Positions 38,325 through 52,412 of a stretch of DNA of 54,181 nucleotides are shown here, piece after piece. Under the pieces are notes generated by a model. The model saw nothing but the letters and a program-made list of their open reading frames with translations. It made no database searches and was not told the DNA's origin. Location of the stretch: contig JAAFIN010000005.1 in the NCBI GenBank assembly GCA_013297825.1, positions 1 to 54,181 of the forward strand, written 5' to 3'. Every line of letters begins with the position of its first letter. The first letter of the stretch is position 1. A program made the position numbers and the translations under genes. Source of the DNA: Cytophagales bacterium (GTDB lineage Bacteria; Bacteroidota; Bacteroidia; Cytophagales; Microscillaceae).

Positions 38325-39500
38325 TCATTCTTCCTTAAAATACTCTTTCCCATCTTTGTCAATATAGCCCATTTTATTTTGGCTAATAAAAACCTTTGCA
38401 ACGCCATTTTTAAAATTTTCTACTTTGTCGTATTTGATTTTTACCACAAGTTTTCCGTCTGTATTCATAAAACCCCATTTTCCATAACGTTCCACTGCAA
38501 CGAGATTTTCCGAAAAATCCTCAACAGTATTATATTCTGCAGGAATTATTTCACGACCTTGCACATCAATATAACCCCACATATTGCCACGTCTGATTTT
38601 GGCAAGACCATTTTTAAAACTTCCTGCAAAACCGTATTTTAAACCAATCGCAAAACTTCCTACTGCATCAATATAACCCCAATTTCCATTTTTGGAAACT
38701 GCCCCAAGCCCTCCACTAAAACTAACTACTGCATCAAAATCTTGGGCAATTACTCTGCCTTTTTTATCAATAAAACCCCATTTTCCGTTCATTTCTACAC
38801 GTGCATAACCCTCAAAAAAACTTTCTACTGCATAATATTGGTGTGGAATAAGCAATTCGTCTTTTGCATTGATGTAACCCCATTTTCCGCCAATTTTTAC
38901 ACCTCCCATTCCATCTCTAAAAGGGAGTGCAAAATCGTATTTTATGCGGACTATTTCGTGGTTGTATTTGTCAATGTAACCCCATTTTTTGCCTTGTCTG
39001 ATAGCAGCAATGCCTTCGTTAAAATTGCTTGTGTCATCATACACCAAAGAAATAACGATTTTGCCTTCTGTGTTGATAAAACCGTGTTTTTTGTTGATTT
39101 TTACTTTTGCGAGTCCATCTCTAAATTCGCCTATTTCTTCGTATTCAATGGGTGTAATTTCTTTGCCTTGTGTGTTGATAAGTCCCCAACGTCCATTAAA
39201 ATATACTTTTGCAACGCCTTCCGCAAAATCTGATGCCATAAAATACTTACAAGGGGCGATTTCTTGCCATTCAGGATTGATAAATCCATACGTATCACCA
39301 CGTTTTACACGTGCTAAGTTGTACGAAAATCGTCCTACTTCGTCATAATCCAATATCATTGCAATACCACGTTCTACGTGTGCATAACCCCATTTGTCGC
39401 CTTTGCGATAAGGAATATACGTTTGTGCAAATATTATTTGGTGTGAAAAAAGGAATAAAAAACAAAAGACTGATAGAGAAAGTATGTTAAAATAAGGCAT
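38325..39500 (-). CDS. Secreted WG-repeat protein with 11 repeats
   Basis: 391 residues with a signal peptide ending IFAQ near residue 26, followed by eleven WG (KWG) repeats of about 33-35 residues that fill the whole mature protein. Each has the core (K/R/N)-W-G-(Y/F)-(I/M)-(N/D), a turn, then a hydrophobic strand ending in Y-D or Y-E and a F-x-(E/D/N)-G-(L/V)-A segment. This is probably a beta-propeller or solenoid surface protein with a binding role. It has the same type of repeat as the shorter lipoprotein at 9106-9969, but no linker or lipobox. Confidence 0.88.
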   Translation of the reverse strand: MPYFNILSLSVFCFLFLFSHQIIFAQTYIPYRKGDKWGYAHVERGIAMILDYDEVGRFSYNLARVKRGDTYGFINPEWQEIAPCKYFMASDFAEGVAKVYFNGRWGLINTQGKEITPIEYEEIGEFRDGLAKVKINKKHGFINTEGKIVISLVYDDTSNFNEGIAAIRQGKKWGYIDKYNHEIVRIKYDFALPFRDGMGGVKIGGKWGYINAKDELLIPHQYYAVESFFEGYARVEMNGKWGFIDKKGRVIAQDFDAVVSFSGGLGAVSKNGNWGYIDAVGSFAIGLKYGFAGSFKNGLAKIRRGNMWGYIDVQGREIIPAEYNTVEDFSENLVAVERYGKWGFMNTDGKLVVKIKYDKVENFKNGVAKVFISQNKMGYIDKDGKEYFKEE

Positions 39501-39732: not shown

Positions 39733-41019
39733 ATGGTATTAGAATTTACAGTTGGTAATTTTCTTTCTTTTCACGAAAGAAAAACCATCAGTTTTGAAGC
39801 GCAAAGTATTTCAGAATTAAAAGACAATGTTATCAATGCAGAAAAACACAAAATTTTGCGTTCTTTGGTCATATATGGTGCTAATTCAAGTGGGAAAAGT
39901 AATATTTTAACTGCTTTTGGTGAAATGAAGCATAATGTTTTAAATTCTGTTAAACTAAATGATGGTGATGAATTGGATTATAAACCTTTTTTGCTTGCAG
40001 AAGAAAGCGAAAAAAAACCTACTTTTTTTGAAATTATTTTTTTTATCAAAGAAAAAAAATATAGGTATGGTTTTGAATACAATCAAACCAAAATTATAAA
40101 TGAATGGCTTTTTGTCAATAAAACACTCAAAACTGAAATTCCGCTTTTTGTGAGAACAGAGGAAGGAATAGGCGTATCTGAAAGTTTTGAGGAAGGAAAA
40201 GGGAAAGAAAAATCAACAAATGACAACAGGTTATTTATTTCGTTGGTGGCACAATTAAGTGGAAAAATATCAAAAGAAATTATAAATTTTTTTAAATTTT
40301 ATAATTTAATCTCTGGTATTGATAGTGCGAGATATGAAACATTTTCAATAAAAATGTTGCTGGAAAAAAAATATGTTTGTGAGAATATGTTACATTTTTT
40401 TCAAAATTTAGAATTAGGTTTTGAAAATATTGAAACTATTGAAGAAGAATTTAACCCTGCTGAAGCTTCTAATAATCCGCTAAAAAACCTTAAATCAAAA
40501 ATAGTAAAGGAATTAACAGGAAAGAATATGATTTCTTTGAAAACCACACACAAAAAATATGACGAAAAAGGGAACATAATTGGTAAAGTTTTATTTGACA
40601 AAGACAAAAATGAATCTGCTGGAACACGAAAAATCATTGATTTGTCAGGTATTATTTTTGATACTTTGTTTTGTGGTAATTTATTGATTGTTGATGAATT
40701 GGATTCAAAACTTCACCCTTTGATAACCGCTCATATTATTAACCTTTTTAATAATCCAAAAACAAACCCTAATAATGCACAACTTTTGTTTAATACACAC
40801 GATATTAACTTATTGAATGGAGATTTTTTTAGGAGAGACCAGATTTGGTTTACCGAAAAAGACAATACAGAACAAACTGATTTGTATTCACTTACAGATA
40901 TAAATTTGCCTGATGGTTCTAAAATTAGAAATGACGCTAATTTGGAGAAAAATTATATTAGGGGACGATTTGGTGCAATTCCATTTATCAAAAATAATTC
41001 ACCACTAAAATCAAAATAA
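39733..41019 (+). CDS. RloA-like AAA ATPase, gene 1 of ATPase+TOPRIM pair
   Basis: 428 residues of AAA_15-type ABC ATPase. The N-terminus LEFTVGNFLSFHERKTISFEA is typical of RloA/abortive-infection ATPases. Walker A is GANSSGKS (residues 49-56), Walker B is LLIVDELDS with Asp321-Glu322, and the H-loop is in FNTHDINLL. The RloB-like gene begins one base after its stop, so the two are translationally coupled. By analogy to RloA/RloB and AbiL-type pairs it is an anti-phage or stress-response ATPase controlling a TOPRIM effector. Both motifs are intact. Confidence 0.88.
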   Translation: MVLEFTVGNFLSFHERKTISFEAQSISELKDNVINAEKHKILRSLVIYGANSSGKSNILTAFGEMKHNVLNSVKLNDGDELDYKPFLLAEESEKKPTFFEIIFFIKEKKYRYGFEYNQTKIINEWLFVNKTLKTEIPLFVRTEEGIGVSESFEEGKGKEKSTNDNRLFISLVAQLSGKISKEIINFFKFYNLISGIDSARYETFSIKMLLEKKYVCENMLHFFQNLELGFENIETIEEEFNPAEASNNPLKNLKSKIVKELTGKNMISLKTTHKKYDEKGNIIGKVLFDKDKNESAGTRKIIDLSGIIFDTLFCGNLLIVDELDSKLHPLITAHIINLFNNPKTNPNNAQLLFNTHDINLLNGDFFRRDQIWFTEKDNTEQTDLYSLTDINLPDGSKIRNDANLEKNYIRGRFGAIPFIKNNSPLKSK

Positions 41020-41020
41020 A

Positions 41021-41767
41021 ATGGCGAGAAAAATAAAAATAGATAATGCAATCCAAAAACGTTTTTCTCAAAAAAGTCAGAAAAAACAAAAAAACAGAGG
41101 CATTATTGCTTACATTTTGATTGTGTGTGAAGGCGAAAAAACAGAGCCAAACTATTTTAAATCATTCCCAAAACAACAAGGAACTACCATTTATGATATT
41201 AGTTTTGGAGGCGGTGCAATCAATACAATAGAAGTAGCAGAAGAAGCTATCAAACTTAGAGATGAATCTCCTCAAAAGTATGACAGCGTTTGGGCGGTTT
41301 TTGATAAAGATAGTTTTCCTGATGAAAAATTTAATAATGCAATTTTTAAAGCTAAAGCAAATGATATAAATTGTGCTTGGAGCAATGAAGCATTTGAATT
41401 GTGGTATTTATTGCATTTTCAGAACAGAACTACGCCAATGAGTAGAAAAGATTATCAAAATGCCATAGAAACCGCCATAGAAAATGTGCTAAAAAATAAT
41501 TCAGGACACAAAAAAGCAAAGAAAAACACACAAAAAATAACTTTTGAATACAAAAAAAATAGCCTTGAAATGTTTGAAATATTGGAAAAATATGGCAGTC
41601 AAGCACAAGCTATTATTTGGGCTAAACAACAATGTGGTAGTTTCCCAAATGAAGATTTTGCAACACACAATCCTGCGACCAAAGTATATGAATTGGTAGA
41701 ACAACTCACAGGAAAATCAGATGAATTTAATCAAAAAATTATAGAAAAATTTGAAAATGGAGAGTGA
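41021..41767 (+). CDS. RloB-like TOPRIM protein, gene 2 of ATPase+TOPRIM pair
   Basis: 248 residues. A basic N-terminus is followed by the TOPRIM-like core: ILIVCEGEKTEPNYF (Glu37, Glu39) and AVFDKDSFPD (Asp95-x-Asp97). The sequence CAWSNEAFELWYLLHF after it is diagnostic of RloB family proteins. It is a probable metal-dependent nuclease or RNase-like effector, whose target is not known from the sequence. Only 11 bases after its stop begins DNA that resembles the 3' end of the downstream LRR genes. Confidence 0.88.
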   Translation: MARKIKIDNAIQKRFSQKSQKKQKNRGIIAYILIVCEGEKTEPNYFKSFPKQQGTTIYDISFGGGAINTIEVAEEAIKLRDESPQKYDSVWAVFDKDSFPDEKFNNAIFKAKANDINCAWSNEAFELWYLLHFQNRTTPMSRKDYQNAIETAIENVLKNNSGHKKAKKNTQKITFEYKKNSLEMFEILEKYGSQAQAIIWAKQQCGSFPNEDFATHNPATKVYELVEQLTGKSDEFNQKIIEKFENGE

Positions 41768-41777
41768 TTTTTTTTTC

Positions 41778-41889
41778 AAAAAATAATGAAATAACAAGCC
41801 AACAGAAACTTTTGGAGGATTTCAAACCCTCCAAAAGTTAAAAATCGCAAAAAAAACCACATCAAAAACTTGATTTTAAATTCCCTTTT
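41778..41889. repeat. LRR-unit boundary repeat, GGAGG palindrome and leader
   Basis: Bases 41778-41803 (ATAATGAAATAACAAGCC) match the 3' ends of both LRR genes (44378-44398 and 46989-47015). A GGAGG palindrome (41807-41839) and about 48 bases of leader follow. The same order, almost base for base, precedes the second LRR gene at 44399-44485, so this is the start of a tandemly duplicated unit. Confidence 0.8.
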
Positions 41890-44394
41890 ATGAAAAAATC
41901 CTTTCCTTTCTACATTATTTTTCTAAATATTTTGTTGGTATTGTTTTCTGCAATGCTTGTAATGTGTGTTTTTGTGGGCGTATTGGTGTTTGTGCAGGAG
42001 GAAAAAAAAGAAGAAAATACAAAAAATGATGAAATGCAGAGAGAAATAGACATAAAATTTACATCAAAAAAAATTTGGGGTAGAGAAGAAAAAGGCAAAA
42101 AATATAGTATTGAGGATAATTTAAAAGAAATTAAGCAAGAAGATATAGAAATATTTGTATTGCAGAATAATATTTATTTAACCAAAAATAAAAAATTTAA
42201 AATTTCTGATATTTCAAATTTCAAAAACCTTAAAAGACTTGAAATATATGGATTTCCATTAGAAGATATTGTTCCTCATATCAAAAAACTTCCAAAACTT
42301 ATTTCCATTGTTGTTGGTGGTCAGGGTCATCAATTAGATATTCCCAAAGAATTATTTGAATTGACTCAATTAAAATATTTGTATCTTGGAGATTTGGAAT
42401 TGTTAGCACTTCCCACAGATATTGGAAAACTCAAAAACCTTGTTCATTTGGAATTGAATAATAATGAAATTATAAAAATTCCTAAAGAAATACAGGAATT
42501 AAAAAAATTAGAATACCTAAATATTTCAAAAAATGGCATCAAAGAATTACCTGAAGAAATTGGAAATTTGAAGAATTTAAAATATATTTATTTCTCAAAT
42601 AATAAAATTAAAACATTGCCTAAAAGCATTGAAAACTTGAAAAATATAAAAAATGCAGATTTTGAAAATAATAAAATCCAAGAATTGCCCAAAGAAATCG
42701 GAAATTGGACAAAAATAACAAGTGTAAATTTTGAAAATAATAAAATTCAAACATTGCCCAAAGAAATTGGAAATTGGACAAAAATACAAGGCATTAATTT
42801 TTCGAATAATAAAATCCAAGAATTACCCAAAGAAATTGGAAATTGGATAAAAATAAAAAGAATAAATTTTTCGAATAATAAAATCCAAGAATTACCCAAA
42901 GAAATAGAAAATTGGAAAGAAATTATGATGTTTTCTGTGGCAAATAATCAACTTATTGCAATTCCAAAAGAAATTGAAATTTTGAAAAATTTTCGTGAGT
43001 TAAATTTTGAAAACAATCAACTTACTACAATTCCAAAAGAAATTGAAAAAATAGAAAATTTGGAAAATCTCAATCTTTCTAACAATAAAATTAGAATTTT
43101 ACCAAATGAAATTTGTAATTTGAAATATTTGAAAAGATTAACATTAAAAAAAAATAAACTTAAAAATCTACCAAAAAACTTTTCAAAACTTAAAAGTTTA
43201 GAAAAATTGGATTTTGAAGATAATCAATTTGATGAAATTCCAGATGAAGTTACAAAACTTAAAATGCTTGAAGAACTTGATTTTTCTAAAAACAACCTCA
43301 AAAATTTCCCGTTTTCATCTGATAGTGCCTTTTATAATTTGCAGAAATTATATCTTTCACATAATAAATTTATCACAATACCAAATAAATTGTATGGATT
43401 ATTACATCTAAAAAACTTAGATATTTCACACAATCAAATCACAAATATTCAAGATATTTGGAAATTAAAATCAATAACATCTGTGAATATTTCACACAAT
43501 CAAATCACAAAATTACCACAAGGTTTTAAAAAAGAATGTAACCGTTTTGATATTTCATATAACCAAATTAGAGAAATTCCTAACGTTTTTTATAATATTT
43601 CATTTGATACATTTTTTAGCGAGAAAATTATTATTTTGGATAATAATTTTATAGAAAATCTTCCTGAATCGTTAAAAACTGAAAATATACAACGAATTTC
43701 ATTAGAAAATAATCCACTCAAAAATATTCCTTTTGACACCATTATTAACAGTGAAAAACTAACTTCGCCAAAATATTTAGATTTTTGGATAAAACAACCA
43801 AATTATGAGTTTGCAATGATTGTTAGGGGAAGGATAATTTTTCCCTCATCTTCATACAAAAAAAGATTTTTTGATACAATTTATTTTAATCCAAATGGAA
43901 AATTAATTTACCAGCATTTTCTCAAAAATCATAAAAGATTAGCAGAAATAAATTTTTATGAAAATTTTGCACTAATTAAACATCGTCATACATATACAAC
44001 AAGAAATAAATATTTCAATCAAATTGGTAAAATAAAACATTTAATTGAAATTGATTTGTATGGTGCTTTTTGGCATATTCAAAACAAAGACTTTATTACT
44101 GCAAAAGACATTTTAGAAAAAATAAAAACGCAAATGAAAGTTTTTGAGCCAACTACTCAACAACTTGATATAATTTCTTTGATACAAGAGCATGAAGAAA
44201 ATCCAAAATCAAAAAGGTTTTATTCAAAAATTATGGAAATACCTATTTTGAAAAAAATCAACTCAGAAAAATCAAAAGAAGAACAAATAACTTTATTAAA
44301 TATAGAAACATTTGATTGGGAAATTTTAAATACTTTACACGAATTGTATGGTTTTTATGAAGACATCAAAATCTTAGAAAAAATGATGAAATAA
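41890..44394 (+). CDS. Membrane-anchored LRR protein, tandem copy 1
   Basis: 834 residues. A single N-terminal membrane helix (about 8-32) anchors it; no cleavage site is evident. After a variable charged linker (33-75), about 22 leucine-rich repeats of 23 residues run to about residue 620, with the pattern LPKEIGNWxxIxxINFxNNKIQE. A conserved C-terminal domain (about 640-834) carries FNPNGKLIYQ, IDLYGAFWHIQNKDFITAK and FYEDIKILEKMMK. Repeats 8-12 are nearly identical to each other, showing recent internal expansion. It is probably a protein-binding receptor facing the periplasm, or the cytosol if the helix is reversed. Confidence 0.85.
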   Translation: MKKSFPFYIIFLNILLVLFSAMLVMCVFVGVLVFVQEEKKEENTKNDEMQREIDIKFTSKKIWGREEKGKKYSIEDNLKEIKQEDIEIFVLQNNIYLTKNKKFKISDISNFKNLKRLEIYGFPLEDIVPHIKKLPKLISIVVGGQGHQLDIPKELFELTQLKYLYLGDLELLALPTDIGKLKNLVHLELNNNEIIKIPKEIQELKKLEYLNISKNGIKELPEEIGNLKNLKYIYFSNNKIKTLPKSIENLKNIKNADFENNKIQELPKEIGNWTKITSVNFENNKIQTLPKEIGNWTKIQGINFSNNKIQELPKEIGNWIKIKRINFSNNKIQELPKEIENWKEIMMFSVANNQLIAIPKEIEILKNFRELNFENNQLTTIPKEIEKIENLENLNLSNNKIRILPNEICNLKYLKRLTLKKNKLKNLPKNFSKLKSLEKLDFEDNQFDEIPDEVTKLKMLEELDFSKNNLKNFPFSSDSAFYNLQKLYLSHNKFITIPNKLYGLLHLKNLDISHNQITNIQDIWKLKSITSVNISHNQITKLPQGFKKECNRFDISYNQIREIPNVFYNISFDTFFSEKIIILDNNFIENLPESLKTENIQRISLENNPLKNIPFDTIINSEKLTSPKYLDFWIKQPNYEFAMIVRGRIIFPSSSYKKRFFDTIYFNPNGKLIYQHFLKNHKRLAEINFYENFALIKHRHTYTTRNKYFNQIGKIKHLIEIDLYGAFWHIQNKDFITAKDILEKIKTQMKVFEPTTQQLDIISLIQEHEENPKSKRFYSKIMEIPILKKINSEKSKEEQITLLNIETFDWEILNTLHELYGFYEDIKILEKMMK

Positions 44395-44398
44395 CAAA

Positions 44399-44485
44399 CA
44401 AAAATTTTTGGAGGATTTCAAGCCCTCCAAAAGTTAAAAATCGCAAAAAAAACCACATCAAAACCTTGATTTTAAATTCCCTTTT
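44399..44485. repeat. Second GGAGG palindrome and duplicated leader
   Basis: TTTTTGGAGG..CCTCCAAAAGTT (44404-44435) and the following leader are nearly identical to 41807-41889. It provides the terminator of copy 1 and the promoter-leader of copy 2. Confidence 0.75.
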
Positions 44486-47005
44486 ATGAAAAAATCCTTT
44501 CCTTTCTACATTATTTTTTTAAATATTTTGTTGGTATTGTTTTCTGCAATGCTTGTAATGTGTGTTTTTGTGGGTGTTTTGGTGTTTGTGCAGGAGCCAG
44601 ATTATTTTTCTGAAAGCAAAACAGAAGAAACAAAAAATAATAACACAAAATCGTATAAAAATTATGGTTATGTGGATAATGCAATCACAAAAGATACAGA
44701 ATCAGAAAAAGAATATTCAAGTGGAATGATTGATGAAACCTTAAAAATTTTTGATGATGTAAAAAGTTTTAGATTAGACCATTTTCAAAGTTCTTCATTT
44801 AGTTATTCGCTTATGGCGAAATTCAAAAATTTAAAAAGATTATATATTCATAATTGCGATATTGAAGAAATATTGCCTCACATAAAAAACCTTCCAAATC
44901 TTATTGAAATTAATTTTGATTATGCCATTCAACTTGATATTCCCAAAGAATTATTTGAATTGACACAACTCGAATATTTGAGATTTAATAACGTGGAATT
45001 GTTGGGATTGCCTGCGGAAATAAAAAACTTAAAAAATCTTGTTAGTTTGGATTTATCAGGTAATCACATAAGCAGTTTGCCTAAAGAAATAGGAGAATTA
45101 AAAAACCTTGAATTTTTAAAAATAGAAAATAATAATCTGCTTTCTTTGCCAGAAGAAATTGGAAATTTGGAGAAATTAAAAAATATTTACTTTTCAAAAA
45201 ATAAAATAAAGTTTTTGCCTAAAAGCATTGGAAACTTAAAAAACATAAAAATTGCAGAATTTGATGATAATAAAATAGAAGAATTGCCCAAAGAAATCAG
45301 AAATTGGAAAGAAGCAAGTATAATAAATTTTAATAATAATCAAATTCAAAAATTACCATACGAAATTGGAAATTGGGCAAAAGCAACATATATAAATTTT
45401 GAAAATAATAAAATCCAAGAATTACCAAATAAAATTGGGAATTGGACAAAAATAAAATATGTGAATTTTGGGAATAATCAAATCCAAAAACTACCAAAAG
45501 AAATAGAAAGTTGGAAAAAAATAGAGGAATTTTATGCAAATAATAACCAACTTACACAAATTCCAAAGGAGATTATGTATTTTGAGCATTTAGAAAAATT
45601 GGATTTTTCAAAAAATCAACTTTCACAAATTCCAAAAGGAATAGAAAAACTAAAAAAATTAGAAGATTTAAGTTTTTCTAACAATAAAATTACATTTTTA
45701 CCAAATGAAATTTGTAATTTGAGTAATTTAAAAAATCTTTCTATAGACACAAATCAACTTACATATTTACCAAAATATTTCTTTAAACTAAAAAATTTAG
45801 AAAATTTAAGCTGTAAAAATAATCAGATTTATTATGTTTCTAATGCAGTTTCTGCCCTCAAAAATCTCCAGAAACTTAATTTTTCCTACAATAAATTTGC
45901 GTATTTACCTTCCAAATTTGAAAGATTATCAAATTTGGAAGAATTAAATTTATCGCACAATGTTTTTGAAGATTTCCCAAATCAATTATATAAATTAAAA
46001 TTTTTGAGAAAATTGTATCTTTCACACAACCAAATCAAAGACATTACAAATATTTGGGATTTGAAAAAAATATATCTGCTTGATATTTCACACAATCAAA
46101 TTCAAAAATTACCTGAAAAATTTGGAAAAGAATGTATGTATTTTGATGCTTCGCACAACAAAATAAAAACGCTTTCTATATTTTATTTTAAAGATGTTTT
46201 TAAAGACCGAAATGACCCAAATATTATTTTAACTGACAATCTCATTGAAAATTTGCCTTTGGAATTAAATGATTATAATAGTTTGTATCATTTATATTTG
46301 TCAAATAATCCCATTAAAAATGTACCTTTTAATCAAAGTATCAACGACAAAAAAATTACTTCTATGGATTGGTTTTATTTTTTGAGGAATAAAAAAGTGG
46401 TTGATATAGAAGATTTAGAAATAAAACGTAAAGAAAAAATTTTCAGTTCAAGACCTGTTTTTCCTGCTGACAGATACAATAAAAAATTTGTTGATTCACT
46501 TTATTTTAATCCAAATGGAAAATTAATTTACCAGTATTTTCTCAAAAATCACCAAGTAATGCAAGAAATTGGTTTTTATGCAAAGGAAAAGTATACCAGC
46601 ATTTATCAAGGTTTTCTTTCTCAAACACAAGATTTAATAGATATTGAATTGTATGGTGCTTTTTGGCACATTCAAAACAAGGATTTTATAACTGCAAAAA
46701 ATATTTTGAAAAAAGTAAAAAAAATGTTGGCAGACTTTGAGCCTAATGGTCAAAAACCTGAAATTACATTTATGATACAAGAAAGCGAACAATATGGAGA
46801 ATCTTCTGAACAACTGTCTTCAAAAATTATGGAAATTCCCATTATCAAAAAAATGTATCTCGCACAACTCGAAATAAAAAAAAATAATCCAAACGCTCAA
46901 CAAGAAGAAAAAAACAAAATTTCAAATCATAGCGTTATGTCTTTTTTGTATGAATTATTTGTTTTTTATGAAGACATCAAAACCTTAGAAAAAATGATGA
47001 AATAA
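44486..47005 (+). CDS. Membrane-anchored LRR protein, tandem copy 2
   Basis: 839 residues, same architecture as copy 1. Residues 1-37, including the membrane helix, are identical to copy 1, even at most silent positions, then the linker is unrelated for about 60 residues. The LRR region follows the same 23-residue LPxEIxNWxxxxxINFxNNxIQ pattern but is clearly diverged, and the C-terminal domain (FNPNGKLIYQYFLKNH, IELYGAFWHIQNKDFITAK, FYEDIKTLEKMMK) is conserved. The pair therefore has fixed ends and a variable middle, as in variable binding proteins. No immune function is demonstrated. Confidence 0.85.
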   Translation: MKKSFPFYIIFLNILLVLFSAMLVMCVFVGVLVFVQEPDYFSESKTEETKNNNTKSYKNYGYVDNAITKDTESEKEYSSGMIDETLKIFDDVKSFRLDHFQSSSFSYSLMAKFKNLKRLYIHNCDIEEILPHIKNLPNLIEINFDYAIQLDIPKELFELTQLEYLRFNNVELLGLPAEIKNLKNLVSLDLSGNHISSLPKEIGELKNLEFLKIENNNLLSLPEEIGNLEKLKNIYFSKNKIKFLPKSIGNLKNIKIAEFDDNKIEELPKEIRNWKEASIINFNNNQIQKLPYEIGNWAKATYINFENNKIQELPNKIGNWTKIKYVNFGNNQIQKLPKEIESWKKIEEFYANNNQLTQIPKEIMYFEHLEKLDFSKNQLSQIPKGIEKLKKLEDLSFSNNKITFLPNEICNLSNLKNLSIDTNQLTYLPKYFFKLKNLENLSCKNNQIYYVSNAVSALKNLQKLNFSYNKFAYLPSKFERLSNLEELNLSHNVFEDFPNQLYKLKFLRKLYLSHNQIKDITNIWDLKKIYLLDISHNQIQKLPEKFGKECMYFDASHNKIKTLSIFYFKDVFKDRNDPNIILTDNLIENLPLELNDYNSLYHLYLSNNPIKNVPFNQSINDKKITSMDWFYFLRNKKVVDIEDLEIKRKEKIFSSRPVFPADRYNKKFVDSLYFNPNGKLIYQYFLKNHQVMQEIGFYAKEKYTSIYQGFLSQTQDLIDIELYGAFWHIQNKDFITAKNILKKVKKMLADFEPNGQKPEITFMIQESEQYGESSEQLSSKIMEIPIIKKMYLAQLEIKKNNPNAQQEEKNKISNHSVMSFLYELFVFYEDIKTLEKMMK

Positions 47006-47030
47006 CAAGCCAACAAAAATTTATGGAATA

Positions 47031-51095: not shown

Positions 51096-52412
51096 TCAAA
51101 AATCAATTTCCAAATCTCCATTTTCATCAATATCTTCATACAAGTTTTGGATTTGCGTTTCTGCATTTGTTAGAGGATTTCCTACCAAATGTAAATCACG
51201 CAATGATGTTGTATTTTGAAAAGCAGAAATGTCTGTAATTTGGTTATTTTCCAAAAATAAAGAACGAATTTTTGGAAGTTCTGACAAAGACAAAACATCT
51301 TTGATTTGATTATTTGCCAAATATAATTCTTTTAATTTGGTAAGATTTTTTAAATTGCCAAGATTTGAAATTTTATTTTGTTGCAAATGCAAAATTTTTA
51401 AGTTTGTTAAATTTCCCAAAGAAAAAATATTTTCAATTTGGTTATTGTTCAAATATAATTCTGTAAGTTTTTTAAGATTTTTCAAAGGAGAAATATTTTC
51501 AATTTTGTTGTTGTTAAAATTGATATTTTCAATTTCTGTAAAATTTTCCAACACAGAAATATCCACAATTTGGTTGTCATAAATTTCTAATTTCTTAATT
51601 TTAGAAAGGTTTTTTAATGGATTTAAGTCTTTTATTTGATTTTCTTGCAAATAAAGTTCTTCCAAAGCAGGCAAATTTTCAAAATCTGAAAGTTCTTTGA
51701 TTTCATTGTGATTTAACCCAATAATAGATAGTTTTTCAAGATTTTTTAGGGCATTTGTATCTTTAATTTTATTAAAATAAATCCAAAAAATTTCTAAATT
51801 TTTGAGATTTTCCAAAATAGAAATATCCTCAATTTGATTGTGTTGCAGATTTATTTCTTTCAAATTTACAAGATTTTGCAAAGGCGAAATATTAGAAATT
51901 TTACAAGCGTGTGCCACTATTTTTTCAAGTTTTGTAAGTCCTGAAAGTGGGGTAATATCACTTACAGGCGTTTCACAAATCCATAATTCTTTCAAATTTA
52001 TAAGATTTTTTAAGGGTGAAATGTCTGTAAATTTATTGTAACACGAAATCCATTGCCTTGTGTTAGAAACATACAAAGAAGTCAAATTTGTAAGATTTTG
52101 CAAAGGCGAAAGGTCAGTAATTAGATTATTATAAAGCCACAATTCTTGCAGATTTTTCATATCAGCAAGAGGCGAAAGGTCTGTTATTTCGTTGTAATGC
52201 AGTTTTAGAGAAATCAAATTTTTGAAAGGCAAAAGTGGTTCAAGGTCATAAATCTGTTTTCCGCCTAAATCCAATTCGGTAATTTCTGATAATTTTTGTA
52301 AATCTTCTTGCCCAAAAGTTACATTTTGAGGCATTTTGAGAGATTCTTTAAATAAATTTTGCCATTTGGTAGTGAGTTCTTCCCACCAAATTATTGTAAA
52401 ATGCTCGTTCAT
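51096..52412 (-). CDS. Internalin-like leucine-rich-repeat protein, cytosolic
   Basis: 438 residues without signal peptide or membrane segment. Residues about 45-425 are approximately 17 repeats of 22 residues in the internalin/SDS22 style: L-x-N-L-x-x-L-x-x-L-x-L-x-x-N-x-I-x-D-(I/L)-x-x-L. They form a curved solenoid with one repeat per coil. This repeat class differs from the LPxEI class of the two membrane LRR proteins at 41890-47005, so the genes are not recent paralogs. The first 40 residues are a separate helical cap. It is a protein-interaction scaffold with no obvious partner nearby. Confidence 0.85.
   Translation of the reverse strand: MNEHFTIIWWEELTTKWQNLFKESLKMPQNVTFGQEDLQKLSEITELDLGGKQIYDLEPLLPFKNLISLKLHYNEITDLSPLADMKNLQELWLYNNLITDLSPLQNLTNLTSLYVSNTRQWISCYNKFTDISPLKNLINLKELWICETPVSDITPLSGLTKLEKIVAHACKISNISPLQNLVNLKEINLQHNQIEDISILENLKNLEIFWIYFNKIKDTNALKNLEKLSIIGLNHNEIKELSDFENLPALEELYLQENQIKDLNPLKNLSKIKKLEIYDNQIVDISVLENFTEIENINFNNNKIENISPLKNLKKLTELYLNNNQIENIFSLGNLTNLKILHLQQNKISNLGNLKNLTKLKELYLANNQIKDVLSLSELPKIRSLFLENNQITDISAFQNTTSLRDLHLVGNPLTNAETQIQNLYEDIDENGDLEIDF

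Follow-up and report, generated by a model that had tools for sequence, protein, structure and literature searches.

A tandem pair of leucine-rich repeat genes with near-identical 5′ ends and diverged repeats in a Cytophagales bacterium

Two leucine-rich repeat (LRR) genes of a Cytophagales bacterium lie in tandem and begin with a sharply bounded, near-identical tract, outside which they have diverged. The evidence makes an exchange of 5′ ends between the two copies in recent times most likely, though it does not prove it, and we consider it rather probable that the genes are tandem paralogs for LRR binding proteins, whose units were duplicated, whose 5′ ends were exchanged by recombination, and whose remaining parts diverged. 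All coordinates are those of the 54,181-nt stretch that was analysed (JAAFIN010000005.1, forward strand), which we refer to as the window. The two genes, and the repeat units compared between them, are as follows.

41890–44394, + strand: LRR gene 1, an open reading frame of 834 aa (Pfam LRR_14, 1.4e-47)
44486–47005, + strand: LRR gene 2, 839 aa, with the architecture of gene 1 (Pfam LRR_14, 3.6e-45)
42340–43305, + strand: 14 consecutive 69-nt LRR units of copy 1, including 42685–42891
44939–45904, + strand: 14 consecutive 69-nt LRR units of copy 2, in register with copy 1 (diagonal identity 58–87%)

Both reading frames start with a hydrophobic N-terminal segment, after which come a linker of low complexity, some 19 LRRs (23 residues each), and a C-terminal domain that is helical; in gene 1 these parts are the anchor (residues 1–37), the linker (about 38–102), the LRRs to about residue 615, and the C-terminal domain (about 650–834). 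The products are 23-residue bacterial LRR proteins, with tandem LPxEIGxLxxLxxLxLxxNxL units that form a solenoid. An AlphaFold2 model of the gene 1 product has a helix at residues 7–34 and the LRR solenoid, with many blocks above 90 pLDDT, and its confidence is low for the C-terminal domain. Pfam finds LRRs alone in both proteins (LRR_14, LRR_4 and LRR_8, far above cut-off) together with one sub-threshold hit, and the fold matches are to Leptospira LRR proteins, SHOC2, and internalin A. The Leptospira interrogans proteins (PDB 4u08, 4u09, and 4u06) have LRRs of the same 23-residue type and match at 30–36% identity; these matches span the solenoid, whereas the proteins described here add a C-terminal domain for which a sequence search of the PDB found nothing. 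Because of the N-terminal anchor, the LRRs probably sit outside the cytoplasm, in membrane-anchored proteins that are probably periplasmic or exported, and ligand binding is their putative function.

No relatives were found among GTDB contigs searched with the whole LRR protein, and an Rfam search gave no match. A defence role was dropped since PADLOC has no match to the LRR proteins, and a name as type III effector or internalin was rejected because every NCBIfam score is under its cut-off and covers the LRR part alone (for the XopAC, XopL, and SspH2 effector families the best is 260 bits against a cut-off of 450). The genome carries dozens of LRR genes, with 104 matches when gene 2 is the query; a further one lies in the window at 51096–52412 (− strand), with SDS22/internalin-like LRR_4 repeats. 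Other neighbours are a protein with nine WG repeats (38325–39500, − strand) and a TMEM260-like protein O-mannosyltransferase (PF11028; 47092–50247, − strand) that is convergent to the LRR array.

The near-identical tract runs from 41778 to 42000 in copy 1 and from 44378 to 44597 in copy 2, a local alignment of 223 nt that is about 96% identical, with eight substitutions and one 4-nt gap; over the 200 nt of 41801–42000 and 44397–44596 the identity is 97%. It comprises the junction, a palindrome, the leader, and 37 codons, the last three of which are placed as follows.

41807–41839, + strand: REP-like palindrome, copy 1, a stem-loop (fold z = −3.86)
44403–44435, + strand: REP-like palindrome, copy 2, from alignment to copy 1
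41840–41889, + strand: leader, copy 1, differing from copy 2 at one of 50 nt
44436–44485, + strand: leader, copy 2, from alignment to copy 1
41890–42000, + strand: signal-anchor coding segment, copy 1, with 37 of 37 amino acids and 31 of 34 silent codons identical to copy 2

At 42000 the identity drops sharply from 97%, and the sequences beyond can barely be aligned; in the middle of the genes it is 67% at the nucleotide level. The tract is thus bounded sharply and low in both silent and non-coding divergence, as gene conversion would leave it; the evidence is strong in the non-coding leader, where a single position in 50 differs outside the palindrome compared with about 48% silent divergence elsewhere, and modest at silent sites. 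Identical silent codons are more frequent in the anchor (31/34) than in the middle of the genes (272/373; one-sided p = 0.011, the region having been picked with the data already in view). Significance is not reached when the best silent run is sought blindly (p = 0.38). A Nei–Gojobori (NG86) contrast of silent differences, 3/23 against 200/418, gives p = 0.0009, a value inflated by codons with several changes, and none of 1000 codon shuffles reaches such a tract, a result that would fit either constraint or conversion. Silent sites alone therefore support a 5′ exchange only modestly, and it is the leader, together with the complete identity of the anchor, that makes a recent exchange likely. 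No other convincing match to the anchor occurs in the genome, and both the anchor and the leader are unique to the window pair. The sequence-only reading had described about 110 bases as near-identical, silent sites included; the near-identity stands, in a tract that is longer than supposed and with a weaker contribution from silent sites.

The palindrome, of sequence AACTTTTGGAGGRTTTNAAACCCTCCAAAAGTT, is a REP-like repeat dispersed over 52 places of the 5.06-Mb genome, in which the reversed control has no match. Its presence in both copies is therefore ordinary and in itself no evidence of conversion; what stands out is the variant GGATTT that the two LRR-copy palindromes have in common, and the unique leader that follows each. 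It is absent from 14 other genomes of the family, and the exact pattern was found elsewhere on three contigs, from a Chitinophagales MAG and Roseivirga seohaensis. It is intergenic in 26 of 27 cases examined, without clear strand preference, and a role as a gene-specific regulatory signal was rejected in view of this distribution. We note a further copy in the window at 458–518, and some copies elsewhere carry longer conserved flanks (TTCCAAAAAAATCCTTGTTAAAAAC ... GAAATCGCAGAAAAACCAATTTAGGAATGG); the palindrome with its flanks is perhaps a small non-autonomous element.

Comparison of the 3′ ends and unit borders involves the following segments.

39733–41767, + strand: AbiL-type pair, AbiLi AAA ATPase and AbiLii/RloB (PADLOC AbiLi 9e-90, AbiLii 1.1e-29; Pfam RloB 3.3e-44)
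41778–41808, + strand: putative remnant of the 3′ end of an LRR unit once present upstream, translating to K-I-M-K-stop in the frame of the LRR genes, with AACAAGCCAACA
44378–44402, + strand: 3′ end of gene 1 with the following junction; homologous to the remnant upstream, with a 4-nt deletion
46989–47022, + strand: gene 2 3′ end and apparent broken left arm of a third palindrome (AAAAATTTATGGA), from alignment to the junction after gene 1

The last 16 codons of the two genes are 92% identical in nucleotides, and 10 of 11 silent codons are identical, which is not significantly more than in the middle (p = 0.16); the 3′ ends are thus similar, though not demonstrably homogenised. Gene conversion of both ends had been proposed from the sequence, and the present data favour it at the 5′ end, with its tract, leader, and anchor, and do not extend it to the 3′ end. 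The AbiL-type pair ends 10 nt upstream of the remnant, which follows directly after the RloB gene and differs from the 3′ end of gene 2 (46989–47019) at two positions. With up to three mismatches these are the only two such places in the 5.06-Mb genome (reversed control 0), and in a shuffled window the expected number is 0. Because the remnant matches the end of gene 2, an upstream unit has probably been lost, or a unit border duplicated, and this suggests that the array once held another, upstream unit. The AAAAATTTATGGA that follows gene 2 looks like half of a third palindrome. The assembly is a draft of 362 contigs, and the number of units in the array may therefore be under-assembled.

Outside the anchor the two proteins are about 50% identical (53% overall). 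Their linkers are barely alignable and their C-terminal domains 51–54% identical in amino acids, bearing out the earlier view of unrelated linkers and similar C-terminal domains. Three genes clearly carry this C-terminal domain, and all belong to this genome: the two window genes and a third paralog. The domain has no significant Pfam match, and a search of 390 genomes of the order gives marginal matches alone (E about 1e-3 to 1e-2). The third paralog is apparently split between the end of one contig (C220, L066) and the start of another (C29, L065), the translations of which overlap by 41 residues. Its N-terminus is quite different, a cleavable-looking signal peptide ending ..KIAFAQ in place of the anchor, and its LRRs are collinear with those of the window pair except where there are small gaps and where one stretch, ahead of the C-terminal domain, is shorter.

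The LRRs have diverged, as had been noted, and the units are equal in number and collinear in order between the two copies. Units 5–7 of copy 1 (42685–42891), which had been taken for near-identical repeats and a substrate for recombination, are 81, 83, and 91% identical to each other. Silent differences between units 6 and 7 of copy 1 (2.5/12) are not below those between the unit 7 sequences of the two copies (2.5/11.8), so recent internal recombination among the copy 1 LRRs is not supported, in a comparison of low power. Over the LRR segments dN/dS is 0.39–0.44 (Nei–Gojobori, two sequences), so that selection on the repeats is on average purifying. By LRR position it is 0.14 for the scaffold, 0.59 for loops and the convex face, and 0.98 for the concave strand, where the 95% confidence interval of pN − pS (−0.14 to 0.13) includes 0; with two sequences and low power, dN/dS does not exceed 1 on the ligand face. 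Change is more frequent at concave positions than at the other exposed ones (permutation p = 0.0002), yet not faster than at silent sites, which suggests a binding face that is free to change or is mildly selected. The idea of diversifying selection on the repeats is thus not upheld, no region having a ratio above 1, and what remains of it is the elevation of the concave positions over the other exposed ones.

Further examination of tandem LRR genes reveals similar 5′ ends elsewhere, including these arrays.

L108, 1648–4456: C290, a tandem LRR pair with a recombined 110-codon 5′ tract and the same 3′ end, followed downstream by a third start that is truncated
L070, 2447–6217: C334, four LRR genes (233 to 417 aa) with a common N-terminal segment
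L158, 3237–6614: G014 C129, three tandem LRR genes (254, 280, and 530 aa) in a genome of the same bacterial family

The C290 pair (448 and 483 aa), in the same genome, is a clearer case of 5′ exchange than the window pair: 96 of 103 silent codons are identical over the 110-codon tract (0/5000 shuffles), silent codons are identical at 33/33 against 133/198 (p = 7e-6), the middle is mostly 50–70% identical in nucleotides, and at the 3′ end 16 of 16 codons are identical, with the identity continuing into the flank. In C334 the 5′ affinities conflict, with genes a and c and genes b and d paired over codons 1–37, and c and d over codons 38–60, which we interpret as a sign of recombination. The first 37 codons of G014 C129 are 95–96% identical, a weaker version of the conserved 5′ end is seen in C71, and in the G001 C314 array of a related genome there is no 5′ excess at silent sites. 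The number of LRRs varies between paralogs in C290, C334, and G014 C129. Silent identity is higher at the start than in the middle in 13 of 15 pairs; the pairs are non-independent, and the relatives were picked for adjacent LRR matches, so that this is not a rate. The protein class is itself ordinary, and the likely 5′-end exchange in the array is part of a repeated pattern.

In the account that we prefer, units would arise by tandem duplication, and the 5′ end (palindrome, leader, and anchor codons) would later be exchanged between copies by homologous recombination, whether gene conversion or a crossover of equivalent effect. Divergence would meanwhile continue in the linker, LRRs, and C-terminal domain, with the scaffold kept by purifying selection and the concave, ligand-facing positions changing at an approximately neutral rate under drift or relaxed selection, and the copies may drift to, or be selected for, different ligands. 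It is also conceivable, though unlikely, that one gene lost its own start and took the palindrome, leader, and anchor of its neighbour in one recent crossover, with no ongoing conversion; the different N-terminus of the third paralog, the collapse of identity at 42000, and the restriction of the anchor to the window pair would all fit such an event, but the remnant at 41778–41808 indicates a homologous unit border on both sides, and since conserved 5′ ends recur in other arrays, the process seems to be a repeated one. Somewhat less likely again is that the leader and anchor have been kept for expression and localisation by functional constraint alone, without recombination. The blind silent-run result agrees with this, as do the last 3′ codons, conserved in protein without demonstrable silent excess; against it stand the nearly invariant non-coding leader, the recombined tract of C290, and the anchor with its full identity and shared silent codons, hydrophobic anchors usually being free to drift in sequence. 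We thus infer conversion over capture or constraint, and a constrained leader or anchor could still be a partial cause of the 5′ identity.

It seems very improbable that the genes form a dedicated variable-receptor system that diversifies binding by reshuffling LRR cassettes between ends that stay conserved. The combination of conserved ends and differing LRR numbers in C290, C334, and G014 C129 is what such a system would produce, and the concave dN/dS near 1, above that of other exposed positions, points the same way. Lamprey variable lymphocyte receptors, for example, have a variable concave face between conserved ends, but the window pair differs from them in having no sign of cassette assembly. 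Its units, compared within a single genome of the genus, are equal and collinear, and nearly so in the third paralog, which contradicts the earlier suggestion of a variable receptor for this pair; dN/dS is not above 1, and in the LRR loci that were read no cassette could be recognised as a silent donor.

The exchange inferred for the window pair can be compared with the local homogenisation inside diverged bacterial paralogs, such as RF1 and RF2, described in one report (PMC4530459), with the difference that here the leader and start of a receptor-like gene are affected. Consecutive LRR genes are known in another member of the Bacteroidota, Flavobacterium psychrophilum, in which, according to passages of a second report, one region holds 16 to 23 LRR ORFs depending on the isolate, implying gain and loss in the array (PMC8400371). 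The likeness is one of arrangement, the F. psychrophilum arrays are much larger, and those passages make no mention of 5′-end homogenisation; apart from this one, no direct precedent for gene conversion of LRR genes in Bacteroidetes emerged from a literature search.

We regard it as a tentative possibility, on the unlikely side, that receptor diversification occurs across the family, with shared 5′ (sometimes 3′) ends serving as recombination anchors, LRR blocks varying in number and binding face, and units gained and lost. LRR-rich Bacteroidota hold dozens of LRR genes, among which the arrays of interest are C308, C290, C334, and G014 C129. If the preferred account is true, tandem copies with recombined starts and a binding face evolving at a neutral rate would point to binding specificity as what changes.
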